A stretch of 64,000 nt of DNA, taken from contig JAKLJI010000001.1 of NCBI GenBank assembly GCA_023151275.1, forward strand, positions 520,409 to 584,408. Direction: 5' to 3'. Source of the stretch: Bacteroidia bacterium (GTDB lineage Bacteria; Bacteroidota; Bacteroidia; UKL13-3). Positions within the stretch are counted from its first letter, which is position 1. Each line of letters starts with the position of its first letter. A program made the translations under genes and the position numbers. This document shows positions 1 to 58,600 of this stretch, piece by piece. The notes beneath the pieces are model-generated. The model had not been told where the DNA came from and did not search any database. It worked only from the letters and a program-made list of their open reading frames with translations.

Positions 1-512
1 ACAGCAGTAGAGTTGTAAGCTTGTTGTCCTTCCTGAAATGTGCTGTAGGGTCTTTGTGGACTTTCAAAATCATCAATCAAAATATCAACGCCTGGAGTTG
101 GCCGCGATTCAAGAATTTGAACCGTGTCTGAATACAAGGTATCCGGATAGTTATCAAAAGATAATCTGGCATAGGCCGATTCATTCTTTCTGAAAAAGGG
201 TGCGAAGCTTATGGTTCCATCCCAGTTAATTAAGCCATTTTCCAGGTCTTTGGCATTGCCGGTATAAACTTTTCTTGCACCACTGTTTATGCCAATTACT
301 TCGAGTGTCCAATTGGTGCGAATGCTTAATCGGGCTTTGAATTCAACGCTTCCACCTGATTTAAAGTCAACTGTTTTTTGCGATGCACGCAAGGGTTCAA
401 TTACTTTAAATTCACCAAAGAGGTCGTTGAGGTCTGGACCCTCAGACACTGAATCTTTTTTACAGCCTGCAAGAATGCCTAGCAGGAATATACTCATCAA
501 TAGGTTTTTCAT
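1..512 (-). CDS. Secreted lipoprotein with probable glycan-binding module (C-terminus beyond window)
   Basis: The reading frame opens with ATG at 512 and runs leftward off the window without a stop, so about 170 residues are visible. The N-terminus is a lipoprotein signal ending in the lipobox LAGC with the acylated Cys at residue 17, followed by KKDS. An Ig-like or BACON-like stretch follows (residues ~35-90). From about residue 145 a segment reading ILIDDFES resembles the opening of jelly-roll carbohydrate-binding modules of the CBM11 kind. It starts 2 nt after the stop of the barrel gene at 515 and is the third visible gene of that operon. I infer a surface or periplasmic-face lipoprotein partner of the two barrels; the ligand is unknown. 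Confidence 0.75.
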   Translation of the reverse strand, partial: MKNLLMSIFLLGILAGCKKDSVSEGPDLNDLFGEFKVIEPLRASQKTVDFKSGGSVEFKARLSIRTNWTLEVIGINSGARKVYTGNAKDLENGLINWDGTISFAPFFRKNESAYARLSFDNYPDTLYSDTVQILESRPTPGVDILIDDFESPQRPYSTFQEGQQAYNSTA

Positions 513-2228: not shown

Positions 2229-4136
2229 CTAAAAGAATAGTTTTAGTTCGATTGTCGTTTCGGTTCCTTCAATATGGTCGAGGGTGAAGCTTTTATCTTG
2301 TTGCTTCATGCGTCTATGCCTAACATAAAGATTGGTGTTTTTTGAGACTGCAAGGTCTAGTCCCAATCCTATCAAGCTTGAGCTTTGGTTCACAGGATCG
2401 TTTGCAGTACTTCCCAAAACACCGTCTTTGTTATCTCCACGGTTAAGTCTGTTGTTTCCCTGAATACGCTCCAAGCCATAGCTTGCGCATAAGCTTAGAT
2501 TTTTGTTGAGTCCCACTATCAAATCGGCTTCATGGTAATGTGTTCTAAGGTAGGCTTTGTTGCTAAATTCAGGCACTGCAGAAAAGCCTTCAGTTGCCGA
2601 ACCCAGAGAAGCGAGGTAAAGCAGGTAAACCGGCTTACCCAGCAAACTCAATTTCTGCTTGAATTGCACTTGCAGCATAGTGAAACCAGTTTGCTTGCGT
2701 GAAGTGCTATCTGTAATTTTTACACCTTGTGAATAGCCTCTGAAATAAGAGGTCCAATTCTTGTAAACACCCATGTTTGAAGTAAAAGGCGCGAATCTTG
2801 AAAAGGGCAAGGCGTTAATTTTATGGCCAAAGGATAAGTCGTTGCTTAAGGTTTCAATTTCCTGAGCTGCCATATTTCCTAGATTGATATAGGTGTTTCT
2901 AAACGGATTGAACCAAGCATTGATGCTAATTCCTTTGCGGTTATTGCTCACCTGACCCACATCTGTAATAGAGCCGGCAAAGCTTGATATTCCTCCACTT
3001 GAAGCATTGGCAGTTGCACCTTGTTCAACACTTGCTGCGCTTAAGATGGTCGTATTTGGACTGAGGAAGTTTCCGTAGTAGTTGATGAATTGCGGACTTA
3101 GATAAAAAGCTTCCGCTTCGATTGGCAGTTTCTTCCATTTCTTTCCGCTTTTAATGCTAAATCGTGCAGCTTCTCCCCATCCTTGATTTTGGTAGGGTGA
3201 GTACAATCTTCCGCGTCCTGCCTCCAAGGCCATTTCAACCCAATCCAATTTCAGGTCCCAGGAAACGGTGTACAATTGAATGCCAGATTTGTCTTTTGCC
3301 AAAGAATCAAGATACATGCTGTAATCCATTCCATTCAAACCAAAATCCATTGGGCCAAGCTTCTTACGAAGTCTGCCTCCCTGGGTTATCGAAGGTTGAT
3401 TTCCTGCAATTGCTGCTGCATTGGGTGTTGTACCGTACAAAAGCCGCACTTGGGTTTGCCAAGGCAGGTCTAAACCATCAATCATTAAACCTTTAAAAGG
3501 TTGCATCCCAAACCGCATATCTCTGCTTATGGTGCCGTTTTCTACATAATTCAGTGCACGAGCCGATGCCAATGCATTTCCTTCCCAGGGCCAGCGTTCA
3601 AAAATGCTGAAGCGTTGGTAGCCTATAAAGCTACTGAAAACCATTCCACTAACATCTATCCAGTTTATCCCACCAAGGTGGGCTGTGAATTTTCCATGTG
3701 AGGTCTGAATGGAACCAGTTAGATTGATTCCTAAGTTTAGGTTGATGGGGCTGGTTCCGGGTTGTCCGCTGAAGTTGTGGTAAAGTGCATAGTCCATTCC
3801 CACATAAGTTTTAGAATTGGGTTGAACCGATAAGTTCAACAACATCATGGGTGGATCTCTGAAAACATCGCCTGTTCCGAGCACATAAGCCGGAGCATTT
3901 GCGTAGGGATTTCCGGGAAGAACTACGAAATCTTGTTTCAGATCTCGGTTAATTCCGAAAAAACGATAGTATCCACCAACGGTTAACTTGTTGAGTGGAA
4001 TATTCGTTCCCGGAATGCTACGTATGGGTCGGCTCCCCGTTTGAAGAGAGTCTGTTCGTATTGGGAGAGTTTGGCCAAATGATGAAATTGCCAAAAATCC
4101 CGAGAACAGCATACCAATCAGTTGCTTGAATTGCAT
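2229..4136 (-). CDS. Outer-membrane beta-barrel protein, first gene of barrel-barrel-lipoprotein operon
   Basis: A 635-residue protein with a signal peptide (MQFKQLIGMLFSGFLAISSFG, cut near residue 21) and a Gly/aromatic-rich strand pattern throughout. The C-terminus ELKLFF fits a BAM beta-signal. The segment around GLMIDGLDLPWQTQVRLLYG recalls large porin-like or exopolysaccharide-export barrels, but that is only a resemblance. It leads the leftward operon and lies 184 bp from the divergent regulator gene at 4321. Its upstream region carries two CTACAACA copies 76-94 bp before the start, the same motif found upstream of the secreted CBM-like protein gene at 10056. Regulation by the neighbouring LuxR-type protein is an inference. 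Confidence 0.8.
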   Translation of the reverse strand: MQFKQLIGMLFSGFLAISSFGQTLPIRTDSLQTGSRPIRSIPGTNIPLNKLTVGGYYRFFGINRDLKQDFVVLPGNPYANAPAYVLGTGDVFRDPPMMLLNLSVQPNSKTYVGMDYALYHNFSGQPGTSPINLNLGINLTGSIQTSHGKFTAHLGGINWIDVSGMVFSSFIGYQRFSIFERWPWEGNALASARALNYVENGTISRDMRFGMQPFKGLMIDGLDLPWQTQVRLLYGTTPNAAAIAGNQPSITQGGRLRKKLGPMDFGLNGMDYSMYLDSLAKDKSGIQLYTVSWDLKLDWVEMALEAGRGRLYSPYQNQGWGEAARFSIKSGKKWKKLPIEAEAFYLSPQFINYYGNFLSPNTTILSAASVEQGATANASSGGISSFAGSITDVGQVSNNRKGISINAWFNPFRNTYINLGNMAAQEIETLSNDLSFGHKINALPFSRFAPFTSNMGVYKNWTSYFRGYSQGVKITDSTSRKQTGFTMLQVQFKQKLSLLGKPVYLLYLASLGSATEGFSAVPEFSNKAYLRTHYHEADLIVGLNKNLSLCASYGLERIQGNNRLNRGDNKDGVLGSTANDPVNQSSSLIGLGLDLAVSKNTNLYVRHRRMKQQDKSFTLDHIEGTETTIELKLFF

Positions 4137-4211
4137 AACCCGAATTTCGACACTGGAATTAATAAATTGGAATTTTGTTTGCCCAACTTACGTACTTCAA
4201 GCCAAAAAACT

Positions 4212-4245
4212 CTACAACATCCCTACAACACTGTTTTGCAAAACA
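4212..4245. promoter_or_regulatory. Candidate operator: tandem CTACAACA plus 14-bp palindrome
   Basis: CTACAACA occurs at 4212-4219 and 4223-4230, an 11-bp period, so both copies lie on one face of the helix. The perfect palindrome TGTTTTGCAAAACA follows at 4232-4245. The site is between divergent genes, 76-109 bp from each start. The same octamer pair recurs at 10158-10179 before another minus-strand gene. I read this as a transcription-factor site; which factor binds is unknown. Confidence 0.5.
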
Positions 4246-4320
4246 CTGAAATTCAAAAATATAACTCAATTGTAAAATCAGCTTGAAAGAGATATTGTTT
4301 CAATTGAATAGATTGCGTTA

Positions 4321-7215
4321 ATGAGCCGAAAATTCCATTTTCTGAGTTGGGTACTGCTTCTTTTGGTAGGAATTCCTACAAAAAATTTTGGCAATGGATT
4401 TTCTTATGGTCCAATGGTTAAATCTTTTACCAAGGACCAATACGGCGGCGGAACCCAAACCTGGGACATTTCTGGAAGTTCAGATGGTTTACTTTTTTTT
4501 GCCAATAACGATGGTTTATTGGTTTTTGATGGGAACCGTTTTGCCAGATATTCATTGCCCGGAAAATCAATTCTTCGTTCGTTGTTTGTAGATACACTGT
4601 CTGATTTGGTTTATGCAGGAGGACAAAACGAAATTGGGTATTTTCAACTTGAAAGTAGAGGAAATTGGGTGTTTCATTCGCTCAAGAATCTGTTGCCATT
4701 AGGTTATCGGGGCTTTGAAGATGTTTGGTCCATTAAGAAACTGGGTCAACAGGTTTATTTTCAAACCAGTCAGCAGGTTTTTGTTTATGATGGCAAGCAA
4801 ATTCAAGCCGAGAAACCCAGTGAGGCCTTGTTGGAAAATTTGTTTGAGCTGAATGGAGCTTTGTATTTAACCGATGCTTCCGGTTCAATTTACCGGCGAG
4901 GAAGTTCCGGTTTTGCATTATTGGTTAAAAGTAGTGGGTTTGATATTTCGGGAATGGTGGCCTACAAAGGAAACGGGCTCTTGGTTTCCTGCTACAGAAA
5001 TGGTTTGTTTCTGCTTCAGGGGAATTCACTTCAAGCTCTGTCAAAAGATTTTGGAACGCTCAAGGAGAGCAGAATTTATAAAATCAGGGCAATGGGCTCT
5101 GGCTATGTGGTGGCAAGTAGCCGTTCTGGTGTATTTTTTCTGGATTCCGGATTGCAGGTGGTAAACAACGTAACCCTAAAAGAAGGCTTGCAAAATAACA
5201 ATGTTCTTTCCTTGTTTCCGGATAGGAACGGTAATTTATGGCTGGGCCTCGACAATGGAATTGACCTTGTTCGATTGAATTATCCCTTTAGTTATTTGGT
5301 TCCGGATGGCTTGTTGAAAGGTACCGGCTATGCCATGAAGGAATTGGGCAATTCTTATTATTTTGGAACCAATAATGGCTTGTATTCGCGCACCAAAGGG
5401 CAATACCGAGGGGATGCCTATCAACTTATTCCGGGTTCAGAAGGACAGGTTTGGAACCTTCAGATAGTACAGGGGAAATTGTTTGTATGTCACCATGAGG
5501 GTTTGTTTGATGTATCCTCTGGAAGAGCCGTTAAGGTTGTTGATATTCGGGGTTGTTGGAAATTGTTGCCTCTTTCGCGCAAACCCGGTTATTATATTCT
5601 TGGAACCTACAATGGACTCTGCTTGTTGCGATGGAACGGAACTACTTTAGAGCTTCAAAGTAGGCTTGATCGGTTTAAGGAGTCCAGTCGCTTTCTTGAG
5701 GAAGATGAAAGCGGTGCACTGTGGGTTGGACATCCTTATAAAGGTTTGTATAAACTGAGTTGCAGCGCCGATTACACTCAGATTCAACAAGTAAAATTAT
5801 ATGGTAAGGCAGATGGCCTTCCTGGAACAACTGACAACTATGTATTTAGAGTTGATCCCGGCTTGTGTTTTGGTACACCTGAAGGCGTTTACAAATACAA
5901 GGAAAGCACCGATAAGTTTGAGCCTTATAAAGCCATCAATCAGCAATTGGGAAATCTTAAGCCAATTCGACGCATGTTTAATGGTCAAAAAGGTTTGGTT
6001 TGGGTGCTAGGGAATAATCAAGTGGTTTATATCAAACCGGTTTATAATGGGGTTGAGTACAGTTATACCAAACGTGATTTGCCGCGTATTGACCAGAATT
6101 TGGTGGGTGGGTTTGAATACCTTGAGGAATGTGCAGGCGGAAATGTCTTTCTAGGCGTTGAATCGGGCTTTGTACACATGGATATCTCAGAGCAAAATCC
6201 GTTTACCATGCATGCGCCTAAAGTAATGGTTACCAGTATTGGCTCACTCAATTTTCCGGATTCTGTTTATGTTAAGCTAGTTCGTTCAGATAAACAGTTT
6301 GAGTTTGATGATCGATCTTTGGAATTTTCATTCAGCTCACCCAATGCTTTTTACTTCAAGGATTTAATGTTTAGCACTTACCTTGAAGGGTGGGAAAAGT
6401 CGTGGTCGCCATGGAAGCCGGGAACAACCCGGGAGTTTAGTAGATTGGCCTATGGTGATTATGCGCTGCACGTGAAAGCCAGATACATGGGTCTTGAAGG
6501 ACCAGAAACCGTAATCCGTTTTCAGGTGAATGCACCTTGGTATTTATCGGGTTTTGCCCGTTTTATGTATTTGTTTTTTGCCCTGATAGGAATCGTGGCC
6601 ATAGTTCTAATTCCTCAACGACGTGTTAAGAAAGAAGCAAGTCGCTTAATGGCCGAGAAGGATCAACACTTTCAGCAACAAACAGAAGAATTAAGAACCC
6701 AAAAGGAGTTAAAAGAAAAAGAATTGATTGAGTTGAAGAACCAGCAATTGCAAAAAGAATTGGAACACCAAGCCAGGGAGTTGGCCTCATCAACCATGCA
6801 TATTGTTCAGAAAAGTGAAATGTTATTGTCTATCAAAGACAAGTTGAGGCGAATTTCTCAAATCAGTAACGACCCAAAAATCAAACCTGAAATTGCAGAA
6901 CTCATTCGCAACATTGATAACGATGCACTGATTGATAAGGAATGGGATAAGTTTGAATTGTACTTCAATACAATTCATAACAGGTTTACTGTTTTGCTTA
7001 AGGAAAAACATCCTGTGCTTAGTTCAAACGACATCAAAATGTGTGCTTACCTGAGGATGAATTTGTCCACCAAAGAAATTGCTTCTTTATTAAACATTTC
7101 AGTGCGGGGCGTTGAGATTAGCAGGTACCGCCTGAGAAAGAAAATGATGTTGGAAAATGGTGTTAACCTTACCGAATACCTTACCCGCTTAGAAGCTGAA
7201 AATCAGCAATTGTAA
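4321..7215 (+). CDS. Transmembrane beta-propeller / Y_Y_Y / LuxR-type regulator
   Basis: This 964-residue protein has a signal peptide or N-terminal membrane segment and then repeated two-component-regulator-propeller blades such as SSDGLLFFANNDGLLVFDG (residues ~30-620). A Y_Y_Y immunoglobulin-like domain follows (~640-740), then one transmembrane helix (~748-768, FARFMYLFFALIGIVAIVLI), a Gln/Glu/Lys-rich coiled coil and a C-terminal LuxR/GerE-type helix-turn-helix (LSTKEIASLLNISVRGVEIS). There is no kinase or receiver domain, so a periplasmic signal would be passed directly to a DNA-binding tail. Family members in Bacteroidota commonly control neighbouring polysaccharide-use genes. Here it is divergent from the barrel operon and convergent with the secreted CBM-like protein gene, which makes both plausible targets. 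Confidence 0.88.
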   Translation: MSRKFHFLSWVLLLLVGIPTKNFGNGFSYGPMVKSFTKDQYGGGTQTWDISGSSDGLLFFANNDGLLVFDGNRFARYSLPGKSILRSLFVDTLSDLVYAGGQNEIGYFQLESRGNWVFHSLKNLLPLGYRGFEDVWSIKKLGQQVYFQTSQQVFVYDGKQIQAEKPSEALLENLFELNGALYLTDASGSIYRRGSSGFALLVKSSGFDISGMVAYKGNGLLVSCYRNGLFLLQGNSLQALSKDFGTLKESRIYKIRAMGSGYVVASSRSGVFFLDSGLQVVNNVTLKEGLQNNNVLSLFPDRNGNLWLGLDNGIDLVRLNYPFSYLVPDGLLKGTGYAMKELGNSYYFGTNNGLYSRTKGQYRGDAYQLIPGSEGQVWNLQIVQGKLFVCHHEGLFDVSSGRAVKVVDIRGCWKLLPLSRKPGYYILGTYNGLCLLRWNGTTLELQSRLDRFKESSRFLEEDESGALWVGHPYKGLYKLSCSADYTQIQQVKLYGKADGLPGTTDNYVFRVDPGLCFGTPEGVYKYKESTDKFEPYKAINQQLGNLKPIRRMFNGQKGLVWVLGNNQVVYIKPVYNGVEYSYTKRDLPRIDQNLVGGFEYLEECAGGNVFLGVESGFVHMDISEQNPFTMHAPKVMVTSIGSLNFPDSVYVKLVRSDKQFEFDDRSLEFSFSSPNAFYFKDLMFSTYLEGWEKSWSPWKPGTTREFSRLAYGDYALHVKARYMGLEGPETVIRFQVNAPWYLSGFARFMYLFFALIGIVAIVLIPQRRVKKEASRLMAEKDQHFQQQTEELRTQKELKEKELIELKNQQLQKELEHQARELASSTMHIVQKSEMLLSIKDKLRRISQISNDPKIKPEIAELIRNIDNDALIDKEWDKFELYFNTIHNRFTVLLKEKHPVLSSNDIKMCAYLRMNLSTKEIASLLNISVRGVEISRYRLRKKMMLENGVNLTEYLTRLEAENQQL

Positions 7216-7221
7216 TGGTGT

Positions 7222-7258
7222 AAAAAAATAAAGGGCCCGGCTATTGCCGAACCCTTTA
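7222..7258 (-). terminator. Rho-independent terminator of the secreted CBM-like gene
   Basis: TAAAGGG pairs with CCCTTTA and, inside a 2x2 internal loop, CGGC pairs with GCCG around a TATT loop (stem 7229-7258). Read on the minus strand, it is followed by a T-rich run from the A stretch at 7222-7228. It lies 50 bp after the stop of the gene ending at 7309 and just beyond the convergent regulator gene. Confidence 0.75.
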
Positions 7259-7308
7259 AATTCCGTGGCTTGTGCGCTCAATCACAAGCTGCGGTTACCA
7301 AACCTGAA

Positions 7309-10056
7309 TTAATCTACCAGGACTTTTACGGTTTTGATCCAGCTTCCGGCTTCCACTTTCAGCAGGTATAAACCTTTATTTAATGCTTTGATATCTAATT
7401 GGCGTAGACTTTCTGTGTCTGTGTAATTTTGGCTCATTACCTCTTTTCCGCTTAGGTCGTAAATGGCAATGCGTGATTTGCCACTGATTACTTTACCTAA
7501 ATCTACTAGGATGTTCTCGCTTGCAGGATTTGGATAAACACTCAGGTTGGCAAGTACGTTTTCTTCTGTGCCAACGGCATCACAAAGTGTGCAGGTATTC
7601 CAGCAATATGGACCAACCAGTACAGCAGCAGTATCTGTTACACGCATTATGCGGTTAACAAAGGTTCCTTCTGTTTTTGTGCAAGGGTCACCAGTATTGA
7701 ATTGCTCCTGATCTTCCCAGTTGCCAATGGTAAACTTGAATGGATATTCACCGGTATCCAAGCTAAGTGTTAAGCTGTAAATATTACCACCTATGCTTGT
7801 CATTGGAGCACAACTTCCGCACCAGTTATTGAAGCTACCGTTCAAGGTAACACCTGAGGTTAAATCACCCACGTAGTTTTTCATGTTAACACGGAATGTA
7901 ACTTTAGCTTTTGGTGCAGTGTTAGCGCAGCTTACACAGCTCTCCCAACATACAACAGGTAATGTATCGTTTAGGTTGGTCACTTTTAAAAAGCGATTGG
8001 TGAAACCAAAATTGGTAACGGTACAAGCTGAACCTTCTTTCAATGACTCCTGAACTTTCCAATCGCCAATTACATACTTGTACTCGTAAGAAGAATCTTT
8101 ATCAAGTAAAAGTGTAGCCGACCAAATGGATGAATTTGCTTCTTTAGTCATTGGAGTACATTTTCCGCACCAGCCGTTGAAGCTACCGTTTAGGGTTACT
8201 GTATCTTCTGGAGCAAGGTTGTATTTTGACATGTCTACGCGGAAGGTAACATTGGTTTTCACTGGTCCTGTGCCAGCACAAGCCAAGCAGCTTTCCCAGC
8301 AAACCACATCAAGTGTTGCATTGCTGGTTCCTGTTTTGATTACACGGTTAGTGAAGTTACCTGAGGTTTTGGTACATGGGCTTCCTTGTGCAAGGTTTTC
8401 TTGGATTACCCAGTTTCCAACTGTGTACTTGTATTCGTATTCGGTATTGGTGTCTAATGGAAGGGTGATGGTCCAGATTTTGGTATTAGGAACATTTGTC
8501 ATTTGTGCGCATTCTCCACACCAGTTGTTAAAGGTTCCATTCAAGGTAACTTTATCGTTTGGACCTAATGGAAGGGAGCGAGCATCTACGGAGAAAGTAA
8601 CGTTTACTTTTGGTGGAGTTTGAGTGCCGCCTCCAGTAAAGCGAACATCATCCCATTTGTAGGTTTTGTTGCCTTCTGAAGCGCCATTTTTACCAAAATT
8701 GAAGAAAATGGATAGTTTGTTGTAAACAGTAGCAAAGTTAATGGCGGCAGTTCCCTGACTTTGGTTAGCAAAATCAAACTCGAGGTCCTCCCAAGCATTG
8801 GCAACAGTTGTGCGGGCATCTGTTTCAACCGATTTGGTTGGGTCTGATGCGTTTTCTGCTTTAAGTCTTACTACAATGCCACTATCTGGAGAGAGTACTT
8901 TTACTTTCATTTTGGTTTGACCAGCTGCAAAAGGAATTGCCTGTGCTAAGCCCGCAGTTGTGCTTGTTGTTGTTCCTGCCCAAGTTTCGGCAGTTGTAGG
9001 TTTAGAGGTTATGGCAACTTTGTTTCCACTTGTTCCTGATTCAAAATCAACTGTTGTAGCTGCTCCACCAAAGTCGATAACGGTGTAATCTACATTGGCT
9101 TCGTCAAAGGTAATTGGAAGTTTAACTTGAGTAAGGCTTGGGCCTGTAGGTGCAACAAAAGCAATATCATCAGCATAGTACACTTTGGTTCCTGCGCTTG
9201 AACCACTGGTGCCAAAATTGAAAAACACTGAAAGTTTTTTGTAAGTGTAGGTCAAATTTAAAGCAGCTGTTCCTGTTGCCTGATTGGCGAAGTCAAAAGT
9301 GATGGTATGCCAAGCATTAGCTACAGTTGTGCGGGCATCTGTTTCAACAGATTTTGTTCCGTCATTTGCGTCTTCAGCTTTCAAACGAATTACAATACCA
9401 CTGTCAGGAGAATAAACCTTCATAGTGATTTTGGTAGCATTTTGGGCAAATGGAATTGCATTTCCAAGGCCACTTGCTGTGCCAAATGTTGTTCCAGCCC
9501 AAGTTTCAGCGGTATTGGTTTTTGTAAAAACTCCCACTTTGTTTGAAGAATCTACCGGATCATTTCCAACAACACTGCTGTTTCCTCCAAAATCGGTAAG
9601 CACATAGGTAAAGCCTGTGCTATCGAATGTAATTGGAAGATTCAATACTTGTTGGCTTGTAGCTGTGCAGGTTGTGCACGACTGCCAGCAAACAGTTGGA
9701 AGTGTAAGAGCGCCACTTACTGAAAGGGTTCTGTTGGTGAAACCTGAATTGGTAACCGTGCATGGCAAACCTGGGGTCAAGGTTTCCTGAGCGTTCCAGC
9801 CACCAATGGTGTACTTGAATTCATGCGTACCGTTTGGAATAGGAAGTGTTGCCGACCATACATTGGAGTTGGCATCTTTGGTAAGAGGGTTGCATTTTCC
9901 GCACCAGTTGTTCCAGGTGCCATTAACGTACACAGTGTCATTCAGACCAGTGTACTGGGCCATGTCAACGCTGAACGTGACATTGCTTTGAGAAAATCCT
10001 GGTATGCTTAATAGCATCAGGATCATCCCTGATAGAAAAGTAGAAAGTTTTTTCAT
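7309..10056 (-). CDS. Type IX-secreted multi-domain protein with CBM48/AMPK-like and jelly-roll modules
   Basis: The protein has 915 residues. After a signal peptide (cut after residue 22) comes an AMPK/CBM48-like beta-sandwich (~24-133) with VYVNGTWNNWCGKC. Two similar jelly-roll modules follow (~136-303 and ~308-475), each opening LPITFD and containing DFGG and TAETWAGTT. Three more CBM48-like modules (~484-600, ~603-710, ~718-825) repeat the LNGSFNNWCG pattern. Each CBM48-like module carries regularly placed Cys (NWCGxC, a single C about 40 residues on, then CWxSCxxC), so disulphides are likely. The last ~75 residues (VYPNPASENILV to the end) are a type A sorting domain for the type IX system, whose SprA is encoded at 52.7 kb. 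No catalytic domain is visible. I infer a surface glycan-binding protein; alpha-glucan is only suggested by the fold. Confidence 0.85.
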   Translation of the reverse strand: MKKLSTFLSGMILMLLSIPGFSQSNVTFSVDMAQYTGLNDTVYVNGTWNNWCGKCNPLTKDANSNVWSATLPIPNGTHEFKYTIGGWNAQETLTPGLPCTVTNSGFTNRTLSVSGALTLPTVCWQSCTTCTATSQQVLNLPITFDSTGFTYVLTDFGGNSSVVGNDPVDSSNKVGVFTKTNTAETWAGTTFGTASGLGNAIPFAQNATKITMKVYSPDSGIVIRLKAEDANDGTKSVETDARTTVANAWHTITFDFANQATGTAALNLTYTYKKLSVFFNFGTSGSSAGTKVYYADDIAFVAPTGPSLTQVKLPITFDEANVDYTVIDFGGAATTVDFESGTSGNKVAITSKPTTAETWAGTTTSTTAGLAQAIPFAAGQTKMKVKVLSPDSGIVVRLKAENASDPTKSVETDARTTVANAWEDLEFDFANQSQGTAAINFATVYNKLSIFFNFGKNGASEGNKTYKWDDVRFTGGGTQTPPKVNVTFSVDARSLPLGPNDKVTLNGTFNNWCGECAQMTNVPNTKIWTITLPLDTNTEYEYKYTVGNWVIQENLAQGSPCTKTSGNFTNRVIKTGTSNATLDVVCWESCLACAGTGPVKTNVTFRVDMSKYNLAPEDTVTLNGSFNGWCGKCTPMTKEANSSIWSATLLLDKDSSYEYKYVIGDWKVQESLKEGSACTVTNFGFTNRFLKVTNLNDTLPVVCWESCVSCANTAPKAKVTFRVNMKNYVGDLTSGVTLNGSFNNWCGSCAPMTSIGGNIYSLTLSLDTGEYPFKFTIGNWEDQEQFNTGDPCTKTEGTFVNRIMRVTDTAAVLVGPYCWNTCTLCDAVGTEENVLANLSVYPNPASENILVDLGKVISGKSRIAIYDLSGKEVMSQNYTDTESLRQLDIKALNKGLYLLKVEAGSWIKTVKVLVD

Positions 10057-10157
10057 CGCGTTTGGATTTTCAAAAGCTAATTTACAATCCTCTGGTCAAG
10101 CTTTTGAATTTTGCCACCCTTCAATGCTTTCACTTTGAAATTTCGACTTAAATAGTC

Positions 10158-10179
10158 CTACAACATTTCTACTACAACA
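10158..10179. promoter_or_regulatory. Candidate operator: second CTACAACA pair
   Basis: CTACAACA at 10158-10165 and 10172-10179, spaced 14 bp. The extra 3 bp come from a CTA duplication (CTACTACAACA). It lies 102-123 bp upstream of the secreted CBM-like gene. It matches the pair at 4212-4230 in sequence and in position relative to a minus-strand gene. Confidence 0.5.
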
Positions 10180-10380: not shown

Positions 10381-12318
10381 CTATTTATCCTGATTCGGGA
10401 ATACTAAATCGAATTGGGTTCCCTTTCCAAGCTCGCTTGATGCTTGCAATTTTGCGGACATGGCATCAAGAAATTCCTTTGAAATACGCATTCCCAAACC
10501 GGTTCCTTTTTCTCCAGAGGTTCCAACGCCAGGCTTGGCAACAGTTCCTTCAACTAATTTATTAAGTTGATAAGAATCCATGCCAATTCCTTGGTCTGTA
10601 ATCTGAATTAGATTTCTTGTTCCGTCTAGAGTGGTTTGGATGCGAATTGTGCTTCCTGTAGGAGAGAATTTTATGGCATTGTGCAGCAAATTTCTAAGCA
10701 CAACGGATAATAGGTTTGAGTCAAAACTCCAGCTGGAGGGGTTGGAGTTGATGAATTCACAGATCTGATTTTTGGCGTCGAGTAAAGGTTTTGATTGGTC
10801 GATGATTTGTTGAATGAGGTCTGCAGGCGACTGCAACTTAAGTTCCGGAACAATACCACCATCCATGGAAGCTTTGGCCCAATGCAGGATATTCTCAAGC
10901 ATGGAGTTTAAGGATTTAAGTGACTTGCTAATGTCTTTACTGTATTGAACGAACTCCTCCTTTGAAATATAATAATCACTTTGCATTTCAAGTAGATTGT
11001 TGAGGTTTGCAACCGGACTTCTTAAGTCGTGGGCAACAATTGAAAACAGCCTGTTTTTTTCTAGGTTAAGTTTTTCAAGTTCCTTTGCTTGACATTCAAT
11101 TTCCTGATTTTTTTCCTTGAGGTTTTTATTGAAAACCTGTTGCCTCCAGAGAAAGAATGCCAAACTTAGAACAAGTATTACACCGATAGCTAAGTATAGG
11201 TTTTTTCGGGTTTGTTGTTCTTCGAGACTATTGATAACCATCAGATTTTTCTCGATGATGTAGCGTTTGGCCAGAAATTCTTCATTGGCCGATGTTTGCT
11301 CTGCATTCAGCTGTTTTAACGAATCCAGAGCTTCACGAAATGCTTCAACCCCAAGCTTGGCATTTCCAAGTTGAATGGCTATTTCTCCCTCCAGCTGTTT
11401 GAACATTGGAAAATAGGGTTGGTCAATCAATTTTTTCAGAACAGGGTCAATATGGTTGAGAATATCTGTGGCTTTGTCCAGCCATTTTTGAGCCTCATGT
11501 GGTCTCCCGCGTTTGAGTTCAATTTCAACTAAGCTAAGAATAGCATTTATTGCTGATGTGGGTTGATTTTGCTTCAAGGAAAGGGTTACATCTGTAATTA
11601 AAAGAGGCTCGGCAAAATCAAAATGTCCATTATCAAAATGACAAGAGCCAATATTTCCGGAAATGATACCAATCCAGGTTTCATTTTTGTAATCCTTTGC
11701 GCGTTGGAGACCTAGATTGAAATAATAGATAGCCGAATCAAGCTTATTGATTTCCTGGTAAAGAAATCCCAGATTATTGGCATTGGAAATGCAGTTGAGA
11801 ATAGTCCCGGATTTAAGTTCATCTTTAAGCTGGTTGTTAAAAATCACTTCGTTTTCCAAATACCCTTTTAGGGCTAAGTCTGATTTTTTCTTAAATCCAT
11901 AGAATCCACTTATAGCAATATTCATGGAAACCAATGCTTTATAATCGGATTTAAGAATTAATTCTTGTCGAATATTTTCAGTCTTCTTTTTAAATGCTAG
12001 AGAATCACCAAGCAAATAATCCAGCATTCCCGAAATGTAATAAATCCGGTATTCCAGCTTATTCAACGTCTTGTTTTTTTGGGCGATCTTTCTCGATTCA
12101 ACCAAATAGTATTTTAACCTAGCTAATGGAATTTGTGAGCGCAGGGTAAGAAATTCAAGTTCATTGCTTAAGTGTTCAAGTGTTTCAGGTTCTGGTTTAT
12201 TATTCAGTTTAGCAAGCAATTCCTGCAATTGCTTTTCCTGTTCAAAACTTAATACATCAACTTGGCAATAGCCGTAGGTGGACGTTATTAGAAAGAGTAA
12301 AAATAGGCAGAGTCTCAT
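10381..12318 (-). CDS. TPR-containing sensor histidine kinase (copy 1)
   Basis: I start the gene at the ATG at 12318 because MRLCLFLLFLITSTYGYCQ is a clean signal peptide; an in-frame start further upstream adds an unlikely extension. The 645-residue product has TPR-like helical repeats (~30-360), a transmembrane helix (LYLAIGVILVLSLAFFLW, ~385), a coiled coil, a HisKA domain with phospho-acceptor His in IVAHDLRSP, and a HATPase_c domain with N-box LLHNAIKFS and G-boxes DQGIGM and GTGLGM. No response regulator is adjacent, so the target is unknown. The kinase at 12531 is a tandem paralogue with identical DNA stretches. A likely -7 box, TAATTTTC, lies about 20 bp before the start. Confidence 0.88.
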   Translation of the reverse strand: MRLCLFLLFLITSTYGYCQVDVLSFEQEKQLQELLAKLNNKPEPETLEHLSNELEFLTLRSQIPLARLKYYLVESRKIAQKNKTLNKLEYRIYYISGMLDYLLGDSLAFKKKTENIRQELILKSDYKALVSMNIAISGFYGFKKKSDLALKGYLENEVIFNNQLKDELKSGTILNCISNANNLGFLYQEINKLDSAIYYFNLGLQRAKDYKNETWIGIISGNIGSCHFDNGHFDFAEPLLITDVTLSLKQNQPTSAINAILSLVEIELKRGRPHEAQKWLDKATDILNHIDPVLKKLIDQPYFPMFKQLEGEIAIQLGNAKLGVEAFREALDSLKQLNAEQTSANEEFLAKRYIIEKNLMVINSLEEQQTRKNLYLAIGVILVLSLAFFLWRQQVFNKNLKEKNQEIECQAKELEKLNLEKNRLFSIVAHDLRSPVANLNNLLEMQSDYYISKEEFVQYSKDISKSLKSLNSMLENILHWAKASMDGGIVPELKLQSPADLIQQIIDQSKPLLDAKNQICEFINSNPSSWSFDSNLLSVVLRNLLHNAIKFSPTGSTIRIQTTLDGTRNLIQITDQGIGMDSYQLNKLVEGTVAKPGVGTSGEKGTGLGMRISKEFLDAMSAKLQASSELGKGTQFDLVFPNQDK

Positions 12319-12530
12319 AGTAAAAGGGAAGATTGTCCGAAAATTACTAATCCAACTCCTAAAAATAATTGAATGAAGAATTATCCCAATGAGATGAAAT
12401 AACTTTGATACTATTACTATCCTTTTCTGCAAAATCTCCCTGTTAGTTTTTATTCTAAGGGGGGTGAACTGTTTTTATTGAAAGTTCACTAGTTAGAGGC
12501 GATGGTTATAGAATAAATTCAATTAAAGTT

Positions 12531-14459
12531 CTACTTGGTAAAAACGAGGCAGAAACATGTGCCTTTTCCAGGTTCACTTGATGCTTCTAGCTTTGCATCC
12601 ATGGCATCAAGAAATTCCTTTGAAATGCGCATTCCCAAACCGGTTCCTTTTTCTCCAGAGGTTCCAACGCCAGGCTTGGCAACAGTTCCTTCCAATAGGT
12701 TCTTGAGTTGATTCGAATCCATTCCAACACCTTGGTCTGTAATCTGAATTAAATTTCTTGTTCCGTCTAGAATGGTTTGTATGCGAATCGTGCTTCCTGT
12801 AGGAGAGAATTTTATGGCATTGTGCAGCAAATTTCTAAGCACAACGGATAATAGGTTTGAGTCAAAACTCCAGCTGGAGGGGTTGGAGTTGATGAATTCA
12901 CAGATCTGATTTTTGGCGTCGAGTAAAGGTTTTGATTGGTCGATGATTTGTTGAATGAGGTCTGCAGGCGACTGCAACTTAAGTTCCGGAACAATACCAC
13001 CATCCATGGAAGCTTTGGCCCAATGCAGGATATTGTCAAGCATGGAGTTCAAAGATTTCAAGGATTTGCTGATATCCTTGCTGAAATGAATAAATTCCTC
13101 CTGAGTAATATCGTTGTCCCTTTGCATTTCAATCAAGCTGTTCAGGTTGGCAACGGGATTTCTTAAATCGTGTGAAACAATGGAAAGTAGTCGGTTTTTT
13201 TCAAGGTTGAGCTTTTCGAGTTCCTTAGCCTGACATTCAATTTCAAGGTTTTTTTCCTTGAGGTTTTTATTGAAAACCTGTTGCCTCCAGAGAAAGAATG
13301 CCAAACTTAGAACAAGTATTACACCGATAGCTAAGTATAGGTTTTTTCGGGTTTGTTGTTCTTCGAGACTATTGATAACCATCAGGTTTTTCTCGATGAT
13401 GTAGCGTTTGGCCAGAAATTCTTCATTGGCATTGCTTTTCGCTTTATTAATCTTGTTGAGCGAGTCTATGGCTTCATGAAATGCCTTAACCCCTAGGTCA
13501 GTATTTCCTAACTGAATGGCAATTTCGCCTTCCAGTTGCTTGAATAAGGAATAATAGGGTTTGTCTAGTTCTTTGCTGGTGGCTTTGTCAAATTGATTTA
13601 CTACTTGGTTTGCCTTGTCTAACCATTCTTTTGCCCGCAGGGGTTGACCACGTTTTAATTCAATCTGCGCCAAATTCGTCATCGCATTAATGGCAGAAGT
13701 TTGCTGATTTTGTTGAAGGGAGTATTTAACATCAGTAATTAATAGAGGTTCTGCCAAGTCATAATTTCCCTTTGCTAGGTGGCAGTAACCAATATTACCA
13801 GAGATAATTCCAATCCATGCTTTGTGTTGGTAGAGTTTTGCTCGCTCATAACTTCGTTCATAGTAATAAAGTGCTGAATCCAGCATTCCTTGGTTTCTGT
13901 AAAGAAGAGCCAGGTTGTTTGCATTTGATATGCAACTTTCTACTTTTCTAGATTGGACATCCTGATTTAATTGATGAGTATAAAGGTTCTCATTTTCCAA
14001 ATAAATGCTTTTGGCTAAATCAAATTTCGATTTGAAATTGTAGAATCCGGCTAGCGTTGAATTCATTTTGGCAAGCTCCTTGTAATCTGCTTTGGCATGC
14101 AACTTCTTGGTAATGTCAGCCATTTTGATTTCAAAGCTCTGCGTATCTCCCAACAGATAATCCAAAACTCCGGAAATGTAGTAGATTCGGTATTCCTTGG
14201 TTTTTAAAAGGGGATTGTTTTGCGTTACTTTTCTTGATTCAACAAGGTAGTACTTTAATCGGGCTAATGGGATTTTTGAATGCAGGGTAAGGAACTCCAA
14301 CCTGTCGCTCATTCGCTCAAGGGTGTCTAAATTCGGCTTATTTTTCAAGCTTTCTAACTGTTCATTCAATGCATTTTCCTGCTCAAAATGGAGCATATCA
14401 ACCTGCCCAAAAAGAGAGGTAGTTATAGAAAAATAGATCAAAAGCAGGTAGAATCTCAT
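12531..14459 (-). CDS. TPR-containing sensor histidine kinase (copy 2)
   Basis: This 642-residue paralogue has the same layout as its downstream neighbour: signal peptide (to ~residue 18), TPR-like repeats, transmembrane helix, coiled coil, HisKA with His in IVSHDLRNP, and HATPase_c. The sensor part has diverged between the copies. The transmembrane segment and much of the HisKA/HATPase coding DNA are identical or nearly so, which points to recent recombination between them. The gap to copy 1 is about 212 bp and has its own promoter-like sequence, so they may be separate transcripts. TATATTTC just before the start resembles the -7 box. No partner regulator is visible; the Crp-like gene at 14511 is a separate family. 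Confidence 0.88.
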   Translation of the reverse strand: MRFYLLLIYFSITTSLFGQVDMLHFEQENALNEQLESLKNKPNLDTLERMSDRLEFLTLHSKIPLARLKYYLVESRKVTQNNPLLKTKEYRIYYISGVLDYLLGDTQSFEIKMADITKKLHAKADYKELAKMNSTLAGFYNFKSKFDLAKSIYLENENLYTHQLNQDVQSRKVESCISNANNLALLYRNQGMLDSALYYYERSYERAKLYQHKAWIGIISGNIGYCHLAKGNYDLAEPLLITDVKYSLQQNQQTSAINAMTNLAQIELKRGQPLRAKEWLDKANQVVNQFDKATSKELDKPYYSLFKQLEGEIAIQLGNTDLGVKAFHEAIDSLNKINKAKSNANEEFLAKRYIIEKNLMVINSLEEQQTRKNLYLAIGVILVLSLAFFLWRQQVFNKNLKEKNLEIECQAKELEKLNLEKNRLLSIVSHDLRNPVANLNSLIEMQRDNDITQEEFIHFSKDISKSLKSLNSMLDNILHWAKASMDGGIVPELKLQSPADLIQQIIDQSKPLLDAKNQICEFINSNPSSWSFDSNLLSVVLRNLLHNAIKFSPTGSTIRIQTILDGTRNLIQITDQGVGMDSNQLKNLLEGTVAKPGVGTSGEKGTGLGMRISKEFLDAMDAKLEASSEPGKGTCFCLVFTK

Positions 14460-55600: not shown

Positions 55601-58600
55601 ATGGAACACTCCGTAATCCCAGCTCAAATTGGGCCGGCATTATGCGTAAAATCGACCAGAATGATTTTGAGCAATCCAATATTGATTACATCGAAATTTG
55701 GATGATGGACCCATTTGCTGATAAGCCGGCGAGCTTCGACAAAGGGTATTTGTATTTTAATCTGGGTAATATTTCAGAGGATATTTTAAAAGATAACAGA
55801 AGACAAGCCGAAAACGGTTTGCCTAAAAATGGCAGTGCAGAGCAACTTGCTTTGTCTGATACCACCATTTGGGGTCGTGTGCCTCGTGCACCGGTTATCA
55901 ACTACGCTTTTGATGCAGACCCAACTGTACGCCAAAATCAGGATGTGGGCTTGGATGGTTTAAATGATGATAACGAGCGCTCTTTCTTCGAGACTGAATA
56001 CCTAAGTCAACTTAGAGCGCGATTTGGTGAAAGCAGTGCTGCCTATCAAAATGCCCTTTCCGATCCATCAAACGACAATTACCATTATTACCTAGGCACT
56101 GATTTCGATAACCAAAAATTGAATGTTGTAGAACGTTATCGGAAATTTAACCGCCACCAGGGTAATTCTCCAACCGTTGAACAGTCGCCTGAATCTTATC
56201 CTACTGCTGCTACCAATGTGCCAGACAATGAAGATTTGAACAAGGATTATACAGTGAATGATGTGGAAGCTTATTTCCAATACAAGATTGAAATCTCCAG
56301 AGATGCTTTCATGATTGGAAAAAACTATGTTACCGATACACTTACTGCTCCTGCTCGTTTTGTTAATGGTGATTATGCTCCTGAGAAATGGTATCAATTG
56401 AAAATTCCTGTTCGCGAATACCAGCGTAAAGTGGGTGATATCTCCGATTTCAAATCGGTGCGATTTGTCCGTATGTTCCTAAATGGATTTACCGAACCTA
56501 CCACAATTCGCTTTGCAACCCTTCAATTGGTGCGGGCTGATTGGCGTAAATACCTAAATAACCTTGAAATTGGTGGTGAACATCGTCCGGTTGACCCAAC
56601 CGATAATACGCAGTTTGTAGTTTCAACCGTAAACATTGAAAAGAACAGCAAGCGGGTTCCAATACCTTATGTAGTTCCTCCGGGTGTACAACGTGAAATT
56701 GACTTCAGTTCACCAAACCCCATTCAGCAAAATGAACAATCCATTAGCTTGCTTACCTGCAATCTGAAAGATGGTGATGCAAGAGCCGTGTTTAAAAACA
56801 CAACAGTTGACCTTAGGCAATATGGAAACCTCCGCATGTTTGTGCATGCAGAGAGCGCAGATAAATTGAAGGAAGGTGAGCTTACCGCTTTCATTCGTTT
56901 TGGTACAGACTTAACTACCAACTATTACGAGTATGAGATTCCGCTGAAGTTTACCGAAGGAAACACCGGTAATCCTTCAGAAATCTGGCCTGCCTCCAAT
57001 GAAATGAATATTGTTCTGGAGGAAATGGTAAATACCAAGATTGCCAGAAACAATGCGGGATTTGCTTTCTCCGGAAGATTTACCCGAGAAATTGGAAATG
57101 GAAAATATACAGTCGTTGGTCAACCGGATTATAGTCAGGTGCGCATCTTTATGATTGGTGTTCGGAATCCAAAACGCGTGGCGGGCACAGTAGGTGGTGA
57201 TGATGGCTTACCAAAATGTGCAGAGGTCTGGTTCAACGAATTGCGCATGACCAATTTCTCCACACGTGGAGGTGATGCGGCAACAGGTCGCCTTCAAGCC
57301 AAATTAGCAGATTTTGGAAATGTGCAGTTAACCGGCTCTTACCGCAGCATTGGCTGGGGTGGCATTGATAAAAAATTGCTCGAAAGAAACATGAGCGATG
57401 ATTACCAATACGACCTACAAACCAGTTTCGAGCTGGGTAAATTCTTCCCCAAAACCAGTGGTATTTCCATTCCGTTTTTCTTTAGTTATGGTACAACCTT
57501 AATTAGGCCTTGGTACAACCCCTTGAATCCGGATACGCGCTTGCAGAAGGAAATAAGCGAAACTACCAATCCCGAACGAACAGAACAAATTTCAAAAGCT
57601 GCAGATGATTATACCATGCGCAGAAGTTTTAACCTGACCAATGTTAGAAAAAACAGAAGCAATGCCGTTCAGCGTAAAGCCATGCCTTGGGACATTGAGA
57701 ACTTCAGTGCAACTTACAGCTTCACCGAAACGTTTAGACGTAATCAAACCATGGCATTCAGCTCGCTTCGCAATTACAGAGGTATGCTGGCCTACAATTA
57801 CAGTTTCAATAATAAACCCTTTGAACCACTTAAAAATCTTAAGTCGCCTTACCTCACCATTCTCAAAGATTTTAACCTGAACTACCTGCCTGCTTCCTGG
57901 GGCTTTCGGGTTGAAGGAGACCGTCGTTATGGTGAACTCATGAACCGGATTAATGATACGCGCACCGAAGAGCTCCCAATCATGTTTGATAAGCTGTTTA
58001 CTATGCGCAGGTATTATGAATTCAGGTATGATTTTACCCGAAACCTGAAGATTGATTACAACTCAACTGCAGATGCACGTGTGGATGAACCCATTGGTAG
58101 AATTGCAGATGATACGCCTGAAAAAAGGGATTCAATCGTGAAGAATTTTTGGAATGGAGGGAAAACAACCAAGTTCGATCAAACCGTTCGTTTGAATTAC
58201 AATATTCCAATCAACAAGCTTCCACTAATGAATTGGGTGACACAGTTTAGCTATGCCTATTCAATCAATTACCAGTGGTTGCAAGCCCCTCCTGCTGCGG
58301 ATAGCTTGGGTAATACCATTCAAAACTCTCGCCAGGACCAATGGAACCTCAACCTCAATTTTACCCAGCTCTACAACAAGTTTGATATTGTTCGCCGAAT
58401 CAATAATCCTTCTTCCATCTCAACGGCACGAAAAGATAAAAACCAAACCTTAGGTGCCAAAGAATCGGAGCAGGCTAAAGCGGAAAAGAATAAGAACAAG
58501 AAAGTTCCTTTTTGGATTAGCACTCCGGTGAAATTGCTCACAAGTTTGAAGAATGCCAGTGCCAGCTATTCAACTACGCAAGGCACTCAGTTACCGGGCT

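Follow-up and report, generated by a model that had tools for sequence, protein, structure and literature searches.

Many glycan clusters of environmental Bacteroidota are headed by LuxR-tailed propeller sensors. For this propeller/LuxR (GerE) type of regulator the open literature yielded no published operator. Direct-repeat operators are known from two other groups of glycan regulators, with the SusR repeats 67/77 bp apart, as measured between their centres, and the HTCS repeats about 21 bp apart (PMC3878776). The beta(1,3)-glucan locus of B. uniformis combines GH16, GH158 and GH3 enzymes with SusC/SusD transport and an HTCS (PMC7157763). The LuxR/NarL-type protein ComA of B. subtilis activates transcription and binds TTGCGG-5nt-TTGCGG, a direct repeat with a period of 11 bp (PMC4797271). 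In the accessible text on marine Flavobacteriia laminarin clusters a LuxR-annotated regulator stands first (PMC13188888).

The locus considered here lies in a 64-kb stretch of DNA, the whole of which is referred to as the window. Sequence comparison suggests, with a probability that we put at roughly 0.8, that a tandem octamer found twice in it is the operator of REG, a propeller/LuxR protein encoded between the two sites, and that REG would sense a beta-1,3-glucan product, bind the pair of half-sites and activate a barrel operon and a CBM48 gene.

Results

A rare tandem octamer upstream of two genes

The genes and the two predicted operators are as follows.

3-512, minus strand: LIP342, the start of a lipoprotein gene of 342 aa
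515-2227, minus strand: BAR2, the second gene of the operon, without a Pfam or NCBIfam match and beta-rich by eye
2229-4136, minus strand: BAR1, the first gene of the operon, modelled as an outer-membrane beta-barrel with no TonB plug and no family name
4212-4230, minus strand: operator 1, TGTTGTAG-GGA-TGTTGTAG, an 11-bp direct repeat kept in 23 orthologous promoters
4321-7215, plus strand: REG, a predicted one-component regulator with a periplasmic two-component-type propeller, a transmembrane segment, a coiled coil and a cytoplasmic LuxR/GerE HTH
7309-10056, minus strand: CBM48 gene, secreted, with several CBM48/AMPK1-type modules and a type IX secretion tail
10158-10179, minus strand: operator 2, with its core at 10158-10176, CTACAACA-TTT-CTACTACA, of 11-bp period, upstream of the CBM48 gene

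The octamer CTACAACA occurs 11 times in the window against 1.75 expected, and a search of the window returned all four of the paired copies that the preliminary description had listed, at 4212-4219, 4223-4230, 10158-10165 and 10172-10179. That description held the pair to occur nowhere else in the window. This is so, and pairs with a gap of 0-12 number exactly two in the whole 3.9-Mb genome (one for the reversed control), with none in 300 dinucleotide shuffles of the window. The pairs lie 76-94 bp upstream of 4136 and 102-123 bp upstream of 10056, both minus-strand starts, in agreement with the 75-125 bp upstream of a minus-strand surface-protein gene first estimated. The single copy noted near 58372 in sprA is also present, at 58371 inside a sprA-like gene; it is real and ordinary. 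A literature search with the letters of the octamer gave only unrelated sequence matches.

The two sites had been thought to have spacings of 11 and 14 bp that differ by a CTA duplication. The first spacing stands; the second does not, as at operator 2 the start of CTACTACA is 11 bp from that of the first octamer (10158) and the octamer at 14 bp, an extra CTACAACA at 10172-10179, overlaps it. In the orthologous promoters position 5 of the octamer is A or T, and both sites are therefore one motif with an 11-bp period. As read from the aligned promoters, the refined motif is the direct repeat CTACWACA-N3-CTACWACA, or TGTWGTAG-N3-TGTWGTAG towards the barrel operon. Eleven base pairs correspond to one turn of the DNA helix. 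The pattern CTACNACANNNCTACNACA, with N at octamer position 5, has two perfect matches in the 3.9-Mb genome, no one-mismatch matches and 11 matches that depart from it at two positions, the last being noise, against 31 matches in all for the reversed control. Because there are no one-mismatch matches and the two-mismatch matches fall below the reversed control, the two operator sites stand alone in the genome, so that a pair common at random sites, which would have told against an operator, is not what is seen.

REG and the genes beside the sites

REG has a signal-like N-terminus and a propeller that matches Reg_prop in Pfam and, by profile, the HTCS sensor structures 3v9f and 4a2l. One transmembrane (hydrophobic) segment lies near residues 746-764; the coiled coil is conserved, and C-terminal of the segment a GerE HTH at residues 899-952 scores above the Pfam cut-off. 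A Pfam scan found no kinase, receiver or AraC domain in REG. The genome encodes no full-length REG paralogue, consistent with an operator present only twice; it has six other GerE-type domains.

The operon runs BAR1-BAR2-lipoprotein-CBM30-like lipoprotein-GH16-GH158, with the CBM30-like lipoprotein and both enzymes beyond the window. The model of BAR1, with a pLDDT of 53.8 from 18 close sequences and 78.9 after distant homologues were added, is a large plugless barrel. Its structural matches are only generic barrels (porins, TonB-receptor barrels and pilus ushers, Z 13-16), and for this reason BAR1 was given no transport family. BAR1 and BAR2, which have no family names, recur in several families of the class. 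The GH16 is close to laminarinases (E 1e-58) and the GH158 to solved members of its family (E 3e-91), and in most orthologous operons a GH3 lies between the CBM30-like lipoprotein and the GH16. The operon studied here (L051:10672-15921) is without that GH3 gene. No operon protein matched SusC or SusD, and the canonical Sus-type locus is not what is found here. From its gene content the operon is a beta-1,3-glucan locus, beta-1,3-glucan being taken as the single substrate because the GH16 is near laminarinases and because of the GH158, the GH3 in most relatives and the sites before GH81 genes described below. The regulon is one of beta-1,3-glucan utilisation, which is narrower than the surface-glycan genes in general that were first named.

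CBM48 modules normally bind alpha-glucans, and the CBM48/AMPK1-type modules sit oddly in a regulon whose other parts point to beta-1,3-glucan. The CBM48 gene adjoins a tandem of two TPR sensor histidine kinase genes (window 10381-14459).

Conservation of the sites with REG

The family scan covered 64 genomes, that of the window included. Perfect sites number 34, in 21 of the 64, compared with one control match. REG orthologues (>50% identity) are present in 25 of the 64, which include every one of the 21 with perfect sites; no perfect site was found in the 39 family genomes without a REG orthologue (Fisher p about 3e-13 over the 64 genomes, uncorrected for kinship). Three of the four REG genomes that lack a perfect site, G017, G026 and G027, have one-mismatch sites. 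In the fourth, G007, BAR1 has no orthologue and the only candidate site is a weak one.

Close BAR1 orthologues (about 60-65% identity) occur in 23 of the 64 genomes, again with that of the window counted. Wherever the BAR1 promoter and a neighbouring REG orthologue are both in the assembly, the repeat lies upstream of BAR1 with 0-2 mismatches, and in nearly every genome with both BAR1 and the CBM48 gene sites stand upstream of each (at most one mismatch; two in two genomes). The pair is thus kept upstream of the orthologues of both genes, as an operator shared by them should be. No repeat was seen upstream of the distant BAR1 homologues (about 31-34% identity) without an adjoining REG. The layout is the same in nearly all cases, with one site before the barrel operon, one before the CBM48 gene and REG in between, and the sites are kept in place between loci whose proteins are 50-65% identical. 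A further site lies before a GH81 laminarinase gene in two genomes, in one of which it adjoins a SusD/GH16 cluster. These GH81 genes (L080:6559-9849 and L081:9929-13219) follow a perfect operator in reversed orientation and encode a CBM6 and a secretion tail, the domains having been scanned in L081. In a variant locus (L083, genome G011) REG and the CBM48 gene have sites and a GH3 gene lies beside REG, and the part of the locus that was read contains no barrel genes. The relatives are Bacteroidota assembled from metagenomes, presumably mostly from fresh water, because their isolate names include lakes and ponds.

Promoter architecture

Further elements stand out in the promoters.

4182-4199, minus strand: second block of the BAR1 promoter, TGAAGTACGTAAGTTGGG, downstream of operator 1
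4247-4249, minus strand: TCA trinucleotide, 17-19 bp upstream of the operator and strongly conserved in the BAR1 and CBM48 sets
10116-10133, minus strand: second block of the CBM48 promoter, GTGAAAGCATTGAAGGGT, downstream of operator 2

Measured to the start of the barrel operon, operator 1 lies 76-94 bp upstream, and measured to that of the divergent REG gene about 90 bp (80-100 bp); operator 2 is kept in 20 orthologous promoters. Across the 23 BAR1 and 20 CBM48 promoters compared, the octamers are nearly invariant: their columns carry 1.58-1.59 bits on average, and those of the flanks 0.46-0.90. The second block reads TGAAGTANGTRAGTTGGG in the BAR1 set and GTGAAAGNNATGNAGGG in the CBM48 set, and the BAR1-type block has one perfect match in the genome of the window, at the BAR1 promoter itself. 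It lies 20/21 or 31/32 nt from the operator in BAR1 promoters; these distance classes are 11 nt apart and the helix face is therefore kept. In CBM48 promoters the distance is 23-25 nt in 19 of 20 (24 in 17). For the remaining one, L087, the pattern search gave 6 nt, and by eye an aligned block is also present at the usual place. Helical phasing of this kind would be expected if polymerase or a second factor were contacted. The second block of operator 1 is suspected to be a core promoter or start region; comparison by eye with a sigma-70-type -7/-33 layout led to no assignment. The TCA may be part of a larger site or the mark of a second factor.

Distant regulators and their repeats

The perfect pattern is confined to its own family. 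Over 395 genomes, the two class-wide matches from outside the family (L100 and L101) lie in unrelated contexts and were set aside as chance. In distant REGs of other families (28-35% identity) the 11-bp repeats are built on a shifted half-site, mostly TACATCA, and stand before REG, the BAR1 operon or SusC. In a motif-based count, nine of the 28 upstream regions reach a score of 11 or more at a spacing of 11 bp, against 0.05 in mononucleotide shuffles and one each at 9, 10, 12 and 13 bp; the counts at 8, 14, 19 and 22 bp are raised by triplet and multiple repeats. A count of direct repeats blind to the motif likewise peaks at 11 bp (nine of 27), followed by seven at 22 bp and six each at 8 and 27 bp.

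Families f2 and f3 also have the cluster of REG and BAR1; the repeats there separate BAR1 from GH158 and are orientated to BAR1 as in the window. Repeats also stand before REG in f2 (genome G064), f3 and f52, and in f35 REG and SusC/SusD have a repeat between them. At L161:4932-4961 three tandem half-sites of 11-bp period stand directly before and run into the predicted start of a distant REG gene, which may actually begin further in. Mapped on a tree of 31 regulators, the repeat requires four changes, compared with 10.6 in shuffles, and it tracks the regulator clade and not the host family, f40 containing both kinds of regulator. Of the distant regulators with S or G before RYRLRKK in the recognition helix 12 of 13 have a site, and of those with other residues none of 14, an apparent link that amounts to two or three independent contrasts only, all agreeing.

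Discussion

The sites and their rarity, their conservation with REG and the enzyme content of the operon are established. By analogy with ComA, we infer that REG binds the 11-bp direct repeat and activates through it. The periplasmic propeller would sense a breakdown product of beta-1,3-glucan and the cytoplasmic LuxR-type HTH, as a head-to-tail pair, would bind the two TGTWGTAG half-sites, which, one helical turn (11 bp) apart, would present the same face of the DNA. Bound REG would then activate the operon of barrel, GH16 and GH158 genes together with the CBM48 gene, and possibly its own gene, most likely acting as an activator rather than a repressor. Given that conservation extends to the second block and the upstream TCA, another factor may share the promoter. 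Against the operator reading counts G007, with REG and a weak candidate site only, and CBM48, as a usual alpha-glucan binder, fits a beta-glucan regulon poorly.

Alternatively, REG might be a mere neighbour and the repeat the target of a different transcription factor or response regulator co-regulating these genes, and both the six other GerE-type domains and the two sensor kinases adjoining the CBM48 gene provide candidates. This seems unlikely, since perfect sites are confined to family genomes with REG, the repeats track the REG clade across families even where REG adjoins SusC/SusD and not barrels, and the 30%-identity BAR1 homologues without REG have no repeat. A slightly lower probability attaches to a site that mainly represses or autoregulates the REG gene, leaving the barrel operon under other control. 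It is true that the divergent REG gene begins 80-100 bp from operator 1 and that the genes of distant REGs are immediately preceded by repeats, but operator 2 and the GH81 sites have no adjoining REG gene and the BAR1 repeat of f2 and f3 (L233 and L235) is distinct from the repeat before REG.

That the repeat lies within about 130 nt of start codons, in a constant direction towards BAR1 and CBM48, would also suit a 5'-UTR RNA element with TGTWGTAG read in the message. We consider this improbable, as the orientation is opposite at the GH81 gene of two genomes and upstream of distant REG genes, and the fixed 11-bp period with 11-bp phasing to the second block is a signature of double-stranded DNA. 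A chance or low-complexity repeat is refuted: single octamers are about sixfold over-represented in the window and repeat tracts yield chance matches elsewhere (L100), but no pair arose in 300 dinucleotide shuffles, 34 sites stand against one control match, and the sites are kept in place among proteins of 50-65% identity. The co-occurrence across the 64 genomes and the way in which the repeat follows the REG clade elsewhere support what was originally the simplest proposal, a single regulon under the LuxR-tailed propeller protein encoded between the sites.

A short and highly specific operator code would make the regulons of LuxR-tailed propeller sensors predictable and testable. The REG operator most likely serves the use of algal beta-1,3-glucan by freshwater Bacteroidota, and a like code appears in several other families. 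We lean, by a small margin over even odds, towards the 11-bp repeat of TAC(A/T)(A/T)CA being a general code of a large propeller/LuxR clade throughout the class, including SusC/SusD-free beta-1,3-glucan uptake through BAR1/BAR2; if so, the regulons of this clade could be read straight from genomes. The findings point to a regulon for algal laminarin-type beta-1,3-glucan in which an unnamed barrel system seemingly replaces SusC/SusD.

In comparison with the B. uniformis locus (PMC7157763), the likeness lies in the GH16/GH158/GH3 set, complete in most orthologous operons and represented here by GH16 and GH158 with no GH3, in the surface lipoproteins and in a single sensor-regulator with a periplasmic sensor. 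In place of SusC/SusD and an HTCS the operon of the window has two unnamed proteins, one of them a modelled barrel, and a LuxR-tailed one-component regulator. The marine Flavobacteriia laminarin clusters have a LuxR regulator as here, and the accessible text describes no operator (PMC13188888). With the SusR-like and HTCS regulons of Bacteroides the locus shares direct-repeat operators before glycan operons and regulators with a periplasmic sensor and a cytoplasmic DNA-binding part, but those regulons have repeats at 67/77 or about 21 bp and other DNA-binding domains, in contrast to the 11 bp and GerE domain found here (PMC3878776). The 67/77-bp repeat of the SusR-like type is absent and REG lacks the kinase, receiver and AraC HTH of an HTCS; with its propeller sensor and C-terminal GerE HTH after one TM segment it belongs with the propeller/LuxR one-component regulators. 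ComA, from another phylum, differs in its half-site sequence, in being a phosphorylated soluble response regulator and in also using inverted repeats (PMC4797271), while ComA and REG both have a LuxR/NarL-type HTH and share a repeat period of 11 bp, that of REG belonging to its predicted binding site.
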